Of a stretch of DNA of 33,973 bases, positions 13,356 to 27,430 are shown piece after piece. The notes beneath the pieces were generated by a model that saw nothing but the letters and a program-made list of their open reading frames with translations, was not told the DNA's origin and did not search any database. Every line of letters begins with the position of its first letter. Within the stretch, counting starts at the first letter, position 1. The position numbers were made by a program, and so were the translations under genes. This stretch comes from a virus, in the IMG/VR virus record IMGVR_UViG_3300031623_000024, positions 1-33,973 of that record. One strand, 5' to 3'.

Positions 13356-14987
13356 TTGCCAAAATATATTGTTGTATGTGGGGGCGTCATATCCGGCACA
13401 GGGAAAGGTGTATCCGCTGCCTCGATGGGTCTATTGATGAAATTAAGAGGGCACACAGTTACCCTTATTAAATTTGATCCTTATTTTAATATAAATGCTG
13501 GAATTCTTGCCCCTCGTGAACATGGAGAATGTTTTTTATGTGACGACGGGACAGAGACCGATTTGGACTTAGGGCATTATTCTAGGATTGCTGGTATTGA
13601 CCCTAATGCAGATAACATATGCACTTCTGGCGTTTTGTATAAAGAATTGATTCAAGAACAAGAAGAGGGTAAGTGGTTGGGTCAAACGATTCAAATTATT
13701 CCTCATGTAACTGATAAGATACAAGAAAGATTAGAGGCATTAGGGGTCTCGTCGGAAATTGTCATTGCCGAAATTGGCGGCACAGTTGGGGATATGGAAA
13801 GTGGCCAGTTTTATGAGGCCCTCCGACAATTTAAACAGAAACATGGCGATGATTGCCTAATTGTTTTTGTTGCTCCCATCTTATGGGTTCCTACTATTAA
13901 AGAATTTAAAACTAAACCATTTCAAAATAGTTATAGAGATCTTCAAAGACATGGGATTCAGGCAGACATGTTGTTTTGTAGGGTAGATCGAAAACTTCCT
14001 GAAAAAATAATTAAAAAAATTAGTGATTTAACAAATGTTTCTAGGGATGATGTGTTTGATGCCCCTGACGTGGACACAATTTATCAAGTTCCAATTGAAT
14101 TTTATAATAGAAACGTAGATGATTTAATCGCAGATAGGTTTAGACTGAAAAGAAATTATTGTAAAATTCAAAAATATCGTGATTTAGTAGAGAAATATAT
14201 GCGGCTTAAAGAGGATGGTGGCCTTGAAGTCAATATTGGGGTATTTGGAAAATATGAAAACTGCGAGGAAGCTTACATCAGTTTAAAAGAAGCTCTTATT
14301 CATGCTTCATTAGACAATAATGTGCGATTCAACATAAAGTGGATTACCGCTGAAGACCTTGAATCTTACAAAGATATGCGTGGTTTAAATAAATACTTTG
14401 AGGAACTGGACGGGGTTATCATACCAGGTGGATTTGATCAACGGGGCGTAGAAGGTAAAATAAAAGCAATTAAGTTTGTTAGAGAAAAGAAAATCCCTTT
14501 CTTAGGCATTTGTTTAGGGCTTCAGTGTGCAGTTATTGAATTTGCAAGAAGTGTTTGTGGTTTAAAAGATGCAAATAGCACTGAGTTCGATAAACTTACT
14601 TCAAACCCTGTTGTTGATTTTGTAGAAGGGCAAGAAGGACTTAAAAAGAAATCAGGAACAATGAGATTGGGAGCTTATGATTGTGCTCTCAAAAAAGATA
14701 CATTGGCTCGTAAAATATACAATAAAAAGACTATAAGCGAGCGGCACAGGCATAGATACGAAGTTAACAATGATTATATAAACATCATAGAATCTAAGGG
14801 AATGGTAGTTTCTGGAACAAATCCATCATCTGGTCTTGTAGAAATGATAGAAATCAAGGAACACCCATACTTTATTGCAACTCAGGCGCATCCTGAATTT
14901 AAAAGCAGCTTAGTAAGTGCGGCACCTTTATTCTCTGGGCTAATTAATGCAGCAATAGAATATAAGAATAATGGGACTGATGAATAA
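13356..14987 (+). CDS. pyrG: CTP synthase
   Basis: This enzyme makes CTP from UTP, ATP and glutamine. The N-terminal synthetase domain has the P-loop GTGKGVSAAS, the DDGTETDLDLGHY segment and GGTVGDMES. The glutamine amidotransferase domain has GICLGLQ with nucleophile Cys386, and HPE with His512 and Glu514. The length of 543 is normal. The start is TTG, chosen because AGGAGG sits five bases upstream. Residues around the UTP/CTP-binding segment differ from the usual KTKPTQHS (here KTKPFQNS), and DPYFNINAG replaces the common DPY-N-DPG. Both could change feedback inhibition by CTP, but that is an inference. CTP synthase is uncommon in phages. Confidence 0.95.
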   Translation: MPKYIVVCGGVISGTGKGVSAASMGLLMKLRGHTVTLIKFDPYFNINAGILAPREHGECFLCDDGTETDLDLGHYSRIAGIDPNADNICTSGVLYKELIQEQEEGKWLGQTIQIIPHVTDKIQERLEALGVSSEIVIAEIGGTVGDMESGQFYEALRQFKQKHGDDCLIVFVAPILWVPTIKEFKTKPFQNSYRDLQRHGIQADMLFCRVDRKLPEKIIKKISDLTNVSRDDVFDAPDVDTIYQVPIEFYNRNVDDLIADRFRLKRNYCKIQKYRDLVEKYMRLKEDGGLEVNIGVFGKYENCEEAYISLKEALIHASLDNNVRFNIKWITAEDLESYKDMRGLNKYFEELDGVIIPGGFDQRGVEGKIKAIKFVREKKIPFLGICLGLQCAVIEFARSVCGLKDANSTEFDKLTSNPVVDFVEGQEGLKKKSGTMRLGAYDCALKKDTLARKIYNKKTISERHRHRYEVNNDYINIIESKGMVVSGTNPSSGLVEMIEIKEHPYFIATQAHPEFKSSLVSAAPLFSGLINAAIEYKNNGTDE

Positions 14988-23286: not shown

Positions 23287-23658
23287 ATGATAGTAATCAA
23301 TATTCAAAACGTAGAAGAATTAATTTTCTTTAATAAAGAAGCACACGCACTGTTTCCTGATTCTAAAGTATATTTTGATCAATGGACGTTAGCTCAAAGA
23401 ATCCCTTCTTTAAGAAGTCTAGGAAAACGGTCAGTTATTGATTTTTTAAACTCTGTTACAGATGAGGGAATAGAAAGATTGGAGAGTTACTTTGAAGATT
23501 CTGTTGCTTTGGAGTTAATCGACTATCATATTGTTAAAACTTATTCCTTTAACGTTGAGGATACGGAAGAAAAACTTAATTCTGCATCCATAGTAGGATA
23601 TAATGATTTTAATGTATCTAGAAACAAAAACATAGTTAACATTACGTTTTGGAGATAA
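23287..23658 (+). CDS. Hypothetical protein, 123 aa
   Basis: It starts MIVINIQNVEELIFF and is rich in acidic and aromatic residues. It has an alpha/beta look (RSLGKRSVIDFLNSVTD, then LESYFEDSVALELIDYHIV) and ends with a strand-like NIVNITFWR. There is no membrane segment and no recognised family. It opens a tightly packed plus-strand run, with one base before the next gene, and is divergent from the gp26-like gene. No clear Shine-Dalgarno is visible, though the ATG is the first in frame. Confidence 0.7.
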   Translation: MIVINIQNVEELIFFNKEAHALFPDSKVYFDQWTLAQRIPSLRSLGKRSVIDFLNSVTDEGIERLESYFEDSVALELIDYHIVKTYSFNVEDTEEKLNSASIVGYNDFNVSRNKNIVNITFWR

Positions 23659-23659
23659 A

Positions 23660-23965
23660 ATGGCGGAATTAATTTTATTTATTTTAGCATCAATAGGAAT
23701 GACGCATGTGTTAGTTGATGGGTCTATATTTTCTTGGTTGAGAAATTTGGCGTTTAAGTATCTCCCTAGAAAAATTTCATCTATTTTTACTTGTTATCAA
23801 TGTGCAGGTATGTGGTGTGGCTTTTTGTTAGGGTATATTATTATAGACAAAGATCCTTTTAAAGTTTTTGCTTGCGGATGTGCATCTAGCTTCATATCCA
23901 TGCTTGCGGCCACGTATTTAAATTATTTAGAAGCACAAACAATTATAAGTTTGGATAAAGAATAA
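23660..23965 (+). CDS. Small membrane protein, DUF1360-like, 101 aa
   Basis: A hydrophobic N-terminal helix (about residues 3-17) is followed by SSIFTCYQCAGMWCGFLLGYIII. This combines a C-x-x-C-x-G-x-W motif with the second membrane helix. A third hydrophobic stretch (CGCASSFISMLAATYL) lies near 75-92. C-x-x-C-x-G-(M/F)-W placed at a membrane helix is the hallmark of DUF1360-type proteins found in bacteria and phages. The role is unknown; it would sit in the host inner membrane. Its stop overlaps the next ATG by one base (TAATG). Confidence 0.7.
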   Translation: MAELILFILASIGMTHVLVDGSIFSWLRNLAFKYLPRKISSIFTCYQCAGMWCGFLLGYIIIDKDPFKVFACGCASSFISMLAATYLNYLEAQTIISLDKE

Positions 23966-24168
23966 TGCCAGCAAGAGCTTATAAATTTTATTGTGAATTT
24001 TGTAGTTATAAGAGCATCATGGATGGTTCTGATTCTAAAAAATTGAGTGAGATAGCACTTGCCCCCGTTCCAAAAGGGCATGCAAAAAGAGGACACATCA
24101 AACGGCCAAAAATGTATTGTTGTCCAAAGTGCGGAAGAGGAATTAAAGCAGAAAGGATTGGGTTATGA
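23965..24168 (+). CDS. Small zinc-ribbon-like protein, 67 aa
   Basis: Two cysteine pairs, CEFC near residue 9 and CCPKC near residue 51, are separated by a basic linker (KGHAKRGHIKRPKM). This gives a likely zinc ribbon. The protein is strongly basic and could bind nucleic acid or a protein partner. The start overlaps the stop of the membrane protein gene, and its own stop overlaps the next start (ATGA), so expression is coupled. Confidence 0.72.
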   Translation: MPARAYKFYCEFCSYKSIMDGSDSKKLSEIALAPVPKGHAKRGHIKRPKMYCCPKCGRGIKAERIGL

Positions 24169-24539
24169 GAAAAGTAGGATTGTTAGATGTAAAGGCTGCT
24201 TTGCAAGATGAAAGATTCAGGGACACACTACCGGAAGAAATGCAAAAAGAGTTTAAAGGCATATCTTGTTCGTCTTGTCCGGCTAACACATCTTTTTATC
24301 AGCGTATACTTCGAGAACATAGAAGCCAATTACAAGAATATTTCCCCGCCAGAGAAGTAGCTGACATTAAAGAAGAAAATAGAAAACTAGCAGAAAATCA
24401 TTGGATTATAATTAATTGTCATATTGATGAGCTTGAGTCTAAATTGAAAAAATTGCCGCCGGGGAGGAAACAGCTTGATTTATCAAGATACGAAGATCAA
24501 GTTACTGTGGTGGTCAACGAGATAGATGTTTTGTATTAA
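24165..24539 (+). CDS. Hypothetical protein with CSSCPANTSFYQR motif, 124 aa
   Basis: The N-terminus is helical (LDVKAALQDERFRDTLPEEMQKEF), followed by the compact motif CSSCPANTSFYQRIL at about 35-49. A long helix continues through REHRSQLQEYFP and EENRKLAENHW, and the end (DQVTVVVNEIDVLY) is a strand. I do not recognise the family. It is the third Cys-pair protein in this run, starting in an ATGA overlap with the zinc-ribbon gene. Confidence 0.7.
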   Translation: MRKVGLLDVKAALQDERFRDTLPEEMQKEFKGISCSSCPANTSFYQRILREHRSQLQEYFPAREVADIKEENRKLAENHWIIINCHIDELESKLKKLPPGRKQLDLSRYEDQVTVVVNEIDVLY

Positions 24540-24564: not shown

Positions 24565-25389
24565 ATGAAGGTGCTTTTAATTTCTCCTGACAATGATATT
24601 TTAAATTGTTTAAAAATTGACAATTCAACTGAATCTGCGCACATTGTTGCATGGTGGAACAATGTAAGAATTTCAAAAGCAAGAACCTGCCAGGAAGGCC
24701 TTGCTTTGGTTGGAAAAAAATCTTTTGATTCAATCATCATCAATCATTCCATGCCAGACTGTGATGCTATTGAATTAATTCCTTTAATTCAAAAAGTAGA
24801 TGATTTATCTAGCATAATATTTGTTACTGAAAATGGTGACGAGATGTTAGCTGTGCGGGCGCTTCAGACAGGGGCCACAGATTATGTGCCTAAAAATAAA
24901 CTTACAAAAGTAATATTATATAAAACTCTTAGAAATTCTATAAAATATCATCAAGCTAAAAAAGATAAAAGTTTTTATGAAGAATTTTACAACAATTCTC
25001 CTGTTGGCTTTTACCGTACAAGCATTAAAAATGGAACAATATTAAAAGCTAATAAGAAGTGCGCAGATATTCTTGGGTTTAAGAGTGTGGATCATATGAA
25101 GAAAAGCACTAAAGCTTCTGATCTTTATTCTTCTGAACTAAGGAGCAAACTCATTGGTATGCTGAACGACACTGGCTCTGTAACAAACTTTGAAATCCTT
25201 TTGGGCAATGGAAATTGGATCTCTTTGTCTGCCAAATCAAACCTAAAGGAAGGGTATCTGGAAGGCTCTGTAGAAGACATTACTTATAGAAAAATTATAG
25301 AAAAAAAATTACAACAACATAGAGAAAAAGAAATGAAATCTTTGAAATCAATACAAGAAAATGTTACGGCTAGGCTTTTGGATTTTTAG
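24565..25389 (+). CDS. Receiver (phosphoacceptor-less) plus PAS domain protein, 274 aa
   Basis: Residues 1-125 follow the CheY-like receiver pattern: strand MKVLLIS, then DSIIINHSMPDCDAIEL, FVTENG with Thr88, and GATDYVPK with Lys110. The phosphoacceptor position is Asn60 rather than Asp, and the acidic pair after strand one is Ser-Pro-Asp, so classical phosphorylation looks lost. Residues about 137-245 form a PAS domain (NNSPVGFYRT, ILKANKKCADILGF, GSVEDITYRK). A 25-residue helix follows and the protein ends without any kinase or DNA-binding domain. I prefer ATG 24565 because it begins strand one; ATG 24526 would add 13 residues and overlap the previous gene. Neither has a clear ribosome binding site. 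It is convergent with the sigma factor pair. Confidence 0.78.
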   Translation: MKVLLISPDNDILNCLKIDNSTESAHIVAWWNNVRISKARTCQEGLALVGKKSFDSIIINHSMPDCDAIELIPLIQKVDDLSSIIFVTENGDEMLAVRALQTGATDYVPKNKLTKVILYKTLRNSIKYHQAKKDKSFYEEFYNNSPVGFYRTSIKNGTILKANKKCADILGFKSVDHMKKSTKASDLYSSELRSKLIGMLNDTGSVTNFEILLGNGNWISLSAKSNLKEGYLEGSVEDITYRKIIEKKLQQHREKEMKSLKSIQENVTARLLDF

Positions 25390-25640
25390 TCGTCATCATC
25401 GTTCATTAAATGCGGGAAATCATCTCTTAGCAATTCACGGCATTCCGCCAATATGTCTTCAAGCTCTTTAGGCTTCCATCCTAAAACTCTACATGTCCCA
25501 CTTTTATTAAGTCGGCCTTTTTTAGTGTATACTTTTTTCTCATGACCTAAAAGTGCTTCTACCAAATCGTCAAACCCATTTTCTTTAAGTTTATCAATTA
25601 TTTCTTGTCGCTCTAATGTCTCTAGAGGGTTTGTTTTCAT
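25386..25640 (-). CDS. Hypothetical small acidic-tailed protein, 84 aa
   Basis: GAAGGA precedes the ATG. The protein starts with a helix (ETLERQEIIDKLKENGFDDLVEALL) and has a central KKGRLNKSGTCRVLGWKPKELEDIL segment that looks helix-turn-helix-like. It ends in an acidic tail (NDDDD). It directly follows the gp55-like sigma gene with a 45-base gap and the same orientation. In T4 the sigma factor gp55 works with the small RNA polymerase-binding coactivator gp33; a similar partner role is a guess from position and size. Its stop overlaps the stop of the receiver-PAS gene. Confidence 0.68.
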   Translation of the reverse strand: MKTNPLETLERQEIIDKLKENGFDDLVEALLGHEKKVYTKKGRLNKSGTCRVLGWKPKELEDILAECRELLRDDFPHLMNDDDD

Positions 25641-25685
25641 TAGTAAAGTCCTTCAATTTTCTTTATTGTAAATTATACTTAAATT

Positions 25686-26234
25686 TTATTCAAGGGTTCT
25701 TCTGCCCATTGAGCTTTTATATAGGACTCTTTCTTTACCATTGATTACGCAAACCTCTTCAAGTTGATCTTTAATATAACCACAGTATTTCTTTTTAAGT
25801 TCTTGATAATTTTTGGCGCTTCTATAAAGCTGTCTAAAATGATTTAATATACATGTGGTCATGTAATTGAAGGCTTTTCCCTTATCGGGATCAAATCGGT
25901 TGATTTTATCAAAACATATCATAACACCTTCCTGTGTGGCATCATCGCTATCGATTAAGCTAAATCTGGCGTATCTGACGATGTTTTCAGATAGTTTCAA
26001 AAACGCTGTCGCCAGACAGTCTTTTAGCTCATTGAACTCATTTTCAGAACTAGTATATTCTTCTTGCTTGCTTTCAAGTCTTTTTTTGTGATATGAATTT
26101 TTATTTTCTCTGCTTTTATAGGAAACTTTTAAATCTTCGATTATAAGCGCACATCGTTCTTTTTGCTTTTTTGTTCCCTGAAATTTCCTGATTAGGGCTT
26201 CCAATGATTTGTTGTTTAAATATTCTGTTGCCAT
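25686..26234 (-). CDS. 55: Late transcription sigma factor, T4 gp55-like
   Basis: The length of 182 is close to T4 gp55. A charged, helical N-terminal part leads into a sigma region 2-like core at about 90-150. This has DDATQEG (97-103), FDPDKGKAFNYMTT (114-127) and a following helix NHFRQLYRSAKNYQELKKK. The motif pair (D/E)DA-x-QEG and FDP-x-KG is shared by gp55 proteins and bacterial sigma region 2. No region 4 is present, which is typical of gp55. It would redirect host RNA polymerase to TATAAATA-type late promoters. It is divergently transcribed from the gene at 26314 and followed by the 84-residue gene. Confidence 0.85.
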   Translation of the reverse strand: MATEYLNNKSLEALIRKFQGTKKQKERCALIIEDLKVSYKSRENKNSYHKKRLESKQEEYTSSENEFNELKDCLATAFLKLSENIVRYARFSLIDSDDATQEGVMICFDKINRFDPDKGKAFNYMTTCILNHFRQLYRSAKNYQELKKKYCGYIKDQLEEVCVINGKERVLYKSSMGRRTLE

Positions 26235-26313
26235 ATGTTATATAAATTTAAGTTTAACTTTGAATTTAGTTTGCTTAATCCTTTCGTTGTTTACATACTA
26301 TTATAATAAGGTT
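26235..26313. promoter_or_regulatory. Divergent AT-rich promoter region
   Basis: This 79-base gap lies between the divergently transcribed sigma factor gene and the gene at 26314, so it should drive both. It contains tattataata near 26297-26307, which can serve as a TATAAT-like -10 on either strand. No convincing -35 is spaced correctly for either. Confidence 0.35.
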
Positions 26314-26502
26314 ATGAAATTTTCTGATTTATTTGCTAAAATAATAGACAAACCTCATTTGGAGGTTAACTACCGAAGGTTAAAAGACTTTTATAAGGAT
26401 GATTTAGAATTTTACGATGCCTTTGAATATCTCATCTCAAAAAAGGGAAATGCTTCCATTAACGACACAAGTATTAATTCAAAACCACGAGAAAATAATT
26501 GA
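26314..26502 (+). CDS. Hypothetical protein, 62 aa
   Basis: The ATG at 26314 has AAGG four bases upstream and starts MKFSDLFAKIIDK. An upstream in-frame ATG at 26209 would add a hydrophobic stretch but overlaps the start of the divergent sigma gene, so I reject it. The protein is charged and helical (YRRLKDFYKDDLEFYDAFEYL) with a polar tail. It is unknown. Its 3' end overlaps the glycosyltransferase start by about 50 bases in another frame. Confidence 0.5.
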   Translation: MKFSDLFAKIIDKPHLEVNYRRLKDFYKDDLEFYDAFEYLISKKGNASINDTSINSKPRENN

Positions 26503-27430
26503 AAAAACCATTAATTCTATTTCCTGTTTTAGTTCTAAAATTATAGCTGTTAATATTGGGTCTACGGACAAGACGGTAGATGTGTGTAAGAAATTAGGCG
26601 TTGATGTTATTCGTCTGTCCTATAATGGAAATAAATCTGAATTAAGAAATGTTATTGTAGATAAAACGGACACTTTGTGGCAGTTTTACATTAACCCTGG
26701 GGAGTTTTTGTTTTCAGGGATTGATTCTTTAATAAAAGAACTTTCTATAGTCGAAACCAATAAAGACATTAATTCTTATAAACTCAATGTGATTAACAAT
26801 GGCATATTGTCTAAAGAAATTAGATTATGGAAAAAGGGACGTGGGCTTGAATTTGTCAATCCTGTATTTGAAACTATTGTTGATTCAAAAGCAAAAAATT
26901 TAAATTCCTCTTTATATTCCTCTGTGCCCGTAGACCTTGAGAAGTGCATTAAAGAAATTAAGAAATGGCAAAAAGAAAGACCATTTGATAGCAGTGCGTA
27001 TTATTATGAAGCTTGTATTTTGTTGTCGAGCAGAAAGTATGAAGAGTTTATTCGCATCGCAAATCAATTTCTTTTTCATCATAAAGATAAAGGAATATCA
27101 TCTTATATGACAAGATATTATTGTTCCTTAGTATATTGTTATTTTTATAAAAATTATGATTTAACAATATCTAATTTAATGCCTTGTATTGAAAAAAATC
27201 CACTGATGGCTGAATTTTGGTGTCTTTTAGGAGATGCTGAATATTACATTTCAAAAAATTATAATAAAGCAAAAGAGCATTATGAAAATGCAATTATCCT
27301 TGGGAGCAGAAGGCCCAAGGATGACGATTGGTCATTAGAAATAGTTAAATACAAAAAATATCCTGAAAAAATGATTGAAAATTGTAATAGAATTAAAAAT
27401 AATATATCGGAATTCAAAGCGTTGGGTTAA
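26450..27430 (+). CDS. GT2-like glycosyltransferase with TPR-like C-terminus, 326 aa
   Basis: The N-terminal 170 residues follow the GT-A pattern of SunS-like family 2 enzymes: LTTQVLIQNHEKIIEKTINSI, AVNIGSTDKTVDVCKKLG (sugar-nucleotide-binding GSTD), then a strand FYINPGEFL. INPGE stands where the metal-binding D-x-D or DADE would be, so catalysis may be weak or different. From about 190, helical repeats (SAYYYEACILLSSRKYEEFI, AEFWCLLGDAEYYI.NYNKAKEHYENAI) look like TPRs. I use ATG 26450, preceded by AAGGG; ATG 26417 adds 11 residues. It may glycosylate a virion protein or DNA, or act on the host surface. Its stop lies four bases from the convergent tail tube stop. Confidence 0.75.
   Translation: MLPLTTQVLIQNHEKIIEKTINSISCFSSKIIAVNIGSTDKTVDVCKKLGVDVIRLSYNGNKSELRNVIVDKTDTLWQFYINPGEFLFSGIDSLIKELSIVETNKDINSYKLNVINNGILSKEIRLWKKGRGLEFVNPVFETIVDSKAKNLNSSLYSSVPVDLEKCIKEIKKWQKERPFDSSAYYYEACILLSSRKYEEFIRIANQFLFHHKDKGISSYMTRYYCSLVYCYFYKNYDLTISNLMPCIEKNPLMAEFWCLLGDAEYYISKNYNKAKEHYENAIILGSRRPKDDDWSLEIVKYKKYPEKMIENCNRIKNNISEFKALG

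Follow-up and report, generated by a model that had tools for sequence, protein, structure and literature searches.

A phage PAS-helix protein fronted by an Asp-less receiver in a variable slot of jumbo myophages

The question raised by this locus is what a CheY-like receiver without its phospho-acceptor might do in a virus when it is joined to a PAS domain and to no kinase or DNA-binding output. The gene (24565..25389, plus strand; 274 aa) lies in an IMG/VR virus record, IMGVR_UViG_3300031623_000024, the whole of which (33,973 bases) was analysed and is referred to here as the window. The open reading frame is found where the initial annotation, made by reading the letters alone, had placed it, and it is the only PF00072 match of the record. 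There is an alternative ATG upstream at 24526; strand 1 of the receiver starts directly after the Met at 24565. The frame is open, and a second IMG/VR contig, perhaps not an independent sample, carries the same sequence with 100% identity over 17,843 bases (the gene is identical in loci L002 and L004), so the gene is not a lone assembly error and an assembly or frame error is unlikely. The gene is known from a single virus population with no non-identical allele, and a search of genome_contigs with its protein (P0001) returned no relative.

The receiver and its phosphorylation site

Residues 1–127 (24565..24945, plus strand) make up the receiver. Pfam Response_reg (PF00072) matches residues 34–111 at 2.5e-13 (50.6 bits against a cut-off of 30.2), PHROGs family 731, of function unknown, covers the receiver part at 4.5e-14, and the closest solved structures by sequence (phmmer) are receivers or proteins containing one. 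The domain was modelled alone with three relatives, and the model is only fair (mean pLDDT 70, pTM 0.70), with the helix 4 region coming out as a strand. Its best VIA-align match is 3crn (Z 14.0, 2.8 A over 116 positions); most of the 50 matches listed there have receiver or response-regulator titles, as do most of the 50 PDB matches listed by Foldseek. The CheY-like domain that had been proposed is therefore present.

The phospho-acceptor site is occupied by Asn60 (codon AAT, 24742..24744, plus strand), which faces Asp of 6oap and 1zy2 in the phmmer alignments and Asp in two bacterial receivers aligned with the window receiver. In the model, strand 3 (56–60) ends on Asn60, strand 4 begins at 83 and strand 5 spans 104–109, and these positions assign Asn60, Thr88 and Lys110 to the places of the canonical D, T and K. 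The switch Thr is retained (Thr88; 24826..24828, plus strand), as are the switch aromatic Tyr107 (K-3) and the pocket Lys (Tyr107 to Lys110; 24883..24894, plus strand) and Pro64 (D+4); the Gly at D+8 is replaced by Ala. The acidic pair DD is absent, with Ser7/Pro8 in its place in the model register. MAFFT gives another register, with Asp19/Asn20, in which the pair is not intact either; this register is less likely because helix 1 would be too short. The initial annotation had read Asn60 for Asp, a degraded acidic pocket and the retention of Thr88 and Lys110, and it was right on all of these, to which Tyr107 can be added. The structure comparison that it had suggested was carried out and finds Asn60 at the site, with no conserved Asp. 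A phosphorylatable response regulator, for which both the Asp and the acid pair are missing, is ruled out.

By the definition given in PMC12632262 (this and the other PMC papers are cited for the portions available), a pseudo-receiver lacks one of five active-site residues, and the window receiver, lacking the Asp, fits it. Loss of the Asp is uncommon but not rare, since 2.0% of the receivers sampled in that study (3,111/152,269) are without it (PMC12632262). Asn is known at this site in RitR, and the general trend among Asp-less receivers is that the Tyr/Thr pair is retained despite the loss (PMC4395418). The window receiver thus resembles RitR (Asn53), FrzS and ChxR in having a receiver fold with the Asp replaced, by Asn in RitR, and the Thr/Tyr pair generally kept (PMC4395418, PMC12632262). 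It differs from that class in being phage-borne, joined to a PAS domain, without DNA-binding output and with the acid pair lost as well.

A receiver of this kind might act as a decoy that binds a host histidine kinase in the manner of a dominant-negative substrate and so blocks phosphotransfer, with the PAS helix aiding the dimer contact. This is the main rival to the reading that we prefer, and we regard it as unlikely. A receiver fold with an unphosphorylatable residue is what it calls for, and there is a precedent in PIT4, a phage protein described as binding several host kinases (PMC10714779). However, the domain has no strong likeness to any cellular receiver, the best joint REC-PAS matches to cellular proteins being only about 20–28% identical, the acid pocket and the D+8 Gly have also been lost, which is beyond a decoy's needs, and 11 of 103 related loci carry the PAS domain with no receiver. 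Binding of a second messenger by the receiver, by analogy with the ShkA pseudo-receiver, which binds c-di-GMP (PMC7010744), would be very unlikely, that precedent being all that speaks for it.

The PAS half and its phage kin

The PAS domain, residues 137–238 (24973..25278, plus strand), is recognised from a sub-threshold Pfam signal, from a model and from homology to PAS proteins found at the same position in related phages (slot PAS proteins, below). Residues 137–213 match Pfam PAS models slightly under cut-off (PAS_8, 19.1 against 21.8 bits), and nine of the ten slot PAS relatives scanned exceed at least one Pfam PAS cut-off, the exception being L123. In a model built on an alignment with ten related phage proteins, residues from about 141 to 274 reach pLDDT >90 in nearly all blocks and form a PAS domain followed by a single 34-residue helix, 240–273 (25282..25383, plus strand), which is common to the phage PAS relatives and is a candidate output or dimerisation helix. 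The PDB matches listed for this model are PAS or LOV domains or proteins containing them. In the two-domain model the receiver part is poor and the two domains are not modelled well together. The PAS assignment for the second half, for which a fold check had been advised, accordingly stands, although the protein's own Pfam score lies below cut-off. Pfam finds no HisKA, HATPase or DNA-binding family in the 274 residues and only the helix follows the PAS domain, so the description of the protein as lacking kinase or DNA-binding output also stands.

The order receiver then PAS is shared with bacterial REC-PAS(-HisKA-HATPase) hybrid kinases and REC-PAS-GGDEF proteins (compare the title of 3h5i). 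The two bacterial REC-PAS proteins that were aligned keep the Asp and continue into a kinase, whereas the window chain ends after the PAS helix, at residue 274. The gene could be a relic, a host REC-PAS-kinase gene minus its kinase that is decaying as cargo. REC-PAS does stand at the N terminus of bacterial kinases, for example in Deinococcus aquaticus and Gloeothece, and the position that the gene occupies is accessory and patchy (eight changes for PAS on the tree described below). Nevertheless, we consider a relic quite unlikely: the frame is open, relatives are under purifying selection, and the PAS half is closer to a phage family than to the bacterial PAS domains compared.

This kinship was assessed with BLAST. 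The nearest slot PAS protein, L068, scores 102 bits (37% over 138 columns) in an alignment reaching into the C-terminal helix, and L047 (90 bits) and L037 (88 bits) come next. The best bacterial PAS compared reaches 63.5 bits and its alignment stops before the helix; some slot PAS proteins score below it (L031, 61.6; L139, 54.3; L123, 48.5 bits). Judged by sequence, the PAS half belongs to a phage PAS family with the same C-terminal helix. The PAS of the window and that of L101 had no match in the phages collection.

The receiver has a different kinship. Its sole BLAST match is a Deinococcus hybrid kinase (50.8 bits) in a set that did not include the stand-alone phage receivers; a two-sequence test against one of those, the Ser-type receiver of L046, gave 37.0 bits and 22% identity. 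Receiver matches in the phages collection are weak and largely in unannotated or bacterial-looking records. On a quick tree of gp55, its small neighbour and the 124-aa gene (102 rows), the receiver label changes twice and the PAS label eight times; the method is quick, and the window sits on a long branch with unsure placement. With two changes required on that tree, a common origin of the window receiver and the Ser-type receivers is unsupported. On these comparisons the window receiver appears to be without a close phage relative, and the Ser-type and window receivers may be unrelated acquisitions. Because BLAST kinship differs between the halves, the window protein is best described as a phage PAS-helix protein fronted by an Asp-less receiver. 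What precedes the phage PAS at the N terminus varies, since a second phage protein (L223, outside the slot) is PAS-PAS rather than receiver-PAS, its second PAS and helix aligning with the window protein at 28% over 221 positions. This 307-aa protein is encoded at L223:1402-2325 (plus strand), and a stand-alone 175-aa PAS protein is also found outside the slot, at L220:1393-1920 (minus strand).

A variable slot near the gp55-like gene

Related loci were collected as 210 sequences and reduced to 103 by removing those with central 800 bases that were also present in a retained sequence; near-copies remain. A common cassette surrounds gp55 in this group: hub, 123-aa gene, DUF1360-like gene, CxxC protein, 124-aa gene, slot, glycosyltransferase, gp55, small ORF and tail tubes. 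In the window the cassette starts with the conserved 123-aa gene (23287..23658), which is followed by the DUF1360-like gene (23660..23965, 101 aa; PF07098, 21.9 bits against a cut-off of 21), by a small protein with two CxxC pairs and no family over cut-off (23965..24168) and by the conserved 124-aa gene directly upstream of the slot (24165..24539; 88 matching ORFs in the 103 loci), all on the plus strand. The glycosyltransferase-TPR gene that in relatives lies next to the slot, identified by family match and group loci, is at 26417..27430 (plus strand).

The slot is the 3' end of the conserved cassette and its contents vary. Counting as empty a gap of <300 bases without a PAS or receiver match, 65 of the 103 loci are empty, 11 hold a stand-alone PAS, four a receiver only (three, plus one at a contig edge), one a receiver-PAS (the window) and six other genes; 16 were unjudged. 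Other cargo is seen at L008:3417 and L014:5141, presumably sugar-nucleotide dehydrogenase-like proteins. Whole-record receiver searches found 2/50 and 1/50 further positive records; each of the three receivers lies in the slot and has Ser in place of the Asp. PAS_9 was found in 14 of 50 records, 11 times in the slot (the window's twin among them) and three times elsewhere, in the PAS-PAS and the stand-alone 175-aa proteins described above and in a histidine kinase; this search overlooked two slot PAS proteins, L047 and L123. A search of phage genomes for the domain pair and the Asn substitution, proposed at the outset, therefore had a divided outcome: receiver-PAS with Asn occurs only in the window among the 103 loci, and the other receivers are Asp-less as well, with Ser.

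The slot relatives are under purifying selection. By a Nei-Gojobori type count, omega is 0.11–0.15 for the receiver-only slot genes (three distinct comparisons), 0.07 for one slot PAS pair with dS near saturation, and 0.02–0.04 for gp55. Relatives carry the PAS half or another dead receiver at the same genome position, which points to a regulatory module that can be exchanged, not to an ordinary two-component regulator of bacterial type.

The initial annotation had also linked the gene to late transcription, noting that it lies tail-to-tail with a late sigma factor pair. The layout was described correctly: the gene meets, tail-to-tail, an 84-aa ORF (25386..25640, minus strand) that adjoins a gp55-like late sigma factor gene (25686..26234, minus strand; PHROG 234, 2e-8; Sigma70_r2). 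The gp55-like member of the pair is confirmed by these matches, while the second has no match over cut-off in three family libraries, in which a T4 gp33 was sought; we take it to be gp33-like by position alone. The ORF is a neighbour of gp55 in relatives, too, the two being neighbours on one strand, <400 bases apart, in 101 of 102 loci, and together (window 25386-26234) they are a candidate late-transcription pair.

The order in relatives is slot, glycosyltransferase (minus strand), gp55 (plus) and small ORF (plus), the last two pointing away from the slot. The three genes of this block (25386-27430: small ORF, gp55-like gene, glycosyltransferase) lie the other way round in the window than in most relatives. 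L006, which matches at 92% over 1,883 bases, shares the inverted arrangement up to the end of its contig at window position 25546. This local inversion is by itself sufficient to produce the tail-to-tail layout, and since the slot is also empty in 65 loci, the layout is not read as functional; the proposed link to late transcription is not supported, as most relatives have the same gp55 pair without the gene. We thus hold a late-transcription regulator acting on the gp55-like factor to be very unlikely. The slot does lie within a few kb of gp55 across the group, and RssB, a response regulator that binds a sigma factor, is among the receiver matches, though as one of many receivers. Besides the empty slots and the inversion, a further point against this role is that TATAAATA, taken as the late promoter word of the T4 type, shows no enrichment, with 2 occurrences where 2.86 are expected.

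The contig represents part of the genome of a jumbo myophage. Its CTP-synthase and tail-tube proteins are 66% and 49% identical to those of LR756511 (595 kb), indicating huge myophages, and for the tail tube Atu_ph07 and others come next. The CTP synthase-like gene occupies window 13356-14984, near a glutamine amidotransferase-like gene. The gp55-like protein and two of its relatives as queries gave 80 loci each, including records of 532, 343 and 245 kb. LR756511 itself has neither domain in searches with PF13426 and PF00072. The sole genome_contigs match for gp55, a 4.2-kb contig in a Neisseriaceae bin, is too weak to assign a host.

A kinase partner of phage origin is not evident, because HisKA is absent from 35 of 36 records; these include the 532-kb record with a slot PAS, and in that phage such a partner is unlikely. 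A complete histidine kinase is encoded at L215:814-2253 (minus strand), on a 48.6-kb contig of the same phage group (that of L080). It combines an ethylene-receptor-type N-terminus (PF25487 ETR1_N, 3e-25) with PAS, HisKA and HATPase, each over its Pfam cut-off, and a title search of the literature gave no report of an ethylene-receptor-type histidine kinase in a bacteriophage genome.

A contact module on a PAS-helix switch

PAS proteins generally bind a ligand or partner and pass the change on through an adjoining helix. We favour, with a probability of about one half, a reading in which the Asp-less receiver makes contacts independently of phosphorylation and has been joined as a module to a phage PAS-helix switch, offering it a docking or dimer surface. 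A jumbo phage would use the protein as a small regulator inside the cell, with the PAS domain and the long helix as its functional core; this core belongs to a phage-specific family found alone at the same site in related phages. The PAS would bind a ligand or partner and relay the change via the C-terminal helix, probably in a dimer. The N-terminal receiver, without normal phosphorylation and with the Thr/Tyr switch pair and the receiver fold kept, would serve as the docking or dimerisation module that brings in a further partner, and the output would be protein contact with a host or phage partner, with no DNA binding and no kinase chemistry. The analysis establishes which domains are present, that the Asp is missing, where the PAS half has its kin, the slot itself and the selection acting on relatives, while the dimer, the signal, the partner and the effect are inferred. 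A pseudo-receiver working by protein contact had been suggested at the start; its phosphorylation-free character is upheld by the sequence and by the group's other receivers, which are Asp-less and under purifying selection, and contact would be its probable mode of action.

Phage-borne receivers, PAS proteins and kinases are already known, and Asp-less receivers are well known in cells. VqmA of vibriophage VP882, which we take to have a PAS make-up, is on the partial account available a phage sensor like the window protein, but it belongs to a temperate phage and regulates transcription by binding DNA. The view that such domains are unusual in a virus was only partly right, since PAS proteins, histidine kinases and CheY-like proteins have all been annotated in phages, for example the CheY-like CDS-30 of Alteromonas phage V22 (PMC7289586). 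That protein, the multi-sensor kinase of Atu_ph07 and the PAS protein A0A6J5KZZ3 are likewise phage-borne signalling domains, and in none of them was a combination of Asp-less receiver and PAS seen, unlike the window. The divergent Rec domain of jumbo phages (cREC), linked to NAD enzymes, is another receiver-like domain outside kinase pathways; in the text available its catalytic Asp residues are conserved and it occurs together with NAD/ADPr genes (PMC7824862), whereas the window receiver is Asp-less and has no such gene beside it. A limited search of one open-licence library turned up nothing published on this slot or on Asp-less receivers in phages.

How Asp-less receivers switch is described as an open question in bacterial signalling (PMC12632262). 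The dead receiver and PAS helix, with natural relatives bearing each half alone, form a compact set for testing the contribution of each module. A broader and more tentative proposal is that in huge myophages a cassette next to the tail genes ends in a slot dedicated to sensing, the content of which can be exchanged. The phages' own PAS-helix switch would be used by itself or behind an Asp-less receiver, and at another place in the genome behind a second PAS; the virus would thereby be able to read the state of the infected cell without phosphorylation and to act on host regulators by contact. If this is true, jumbo phages would sense the state of the cell through a protein other than a transcription factor.
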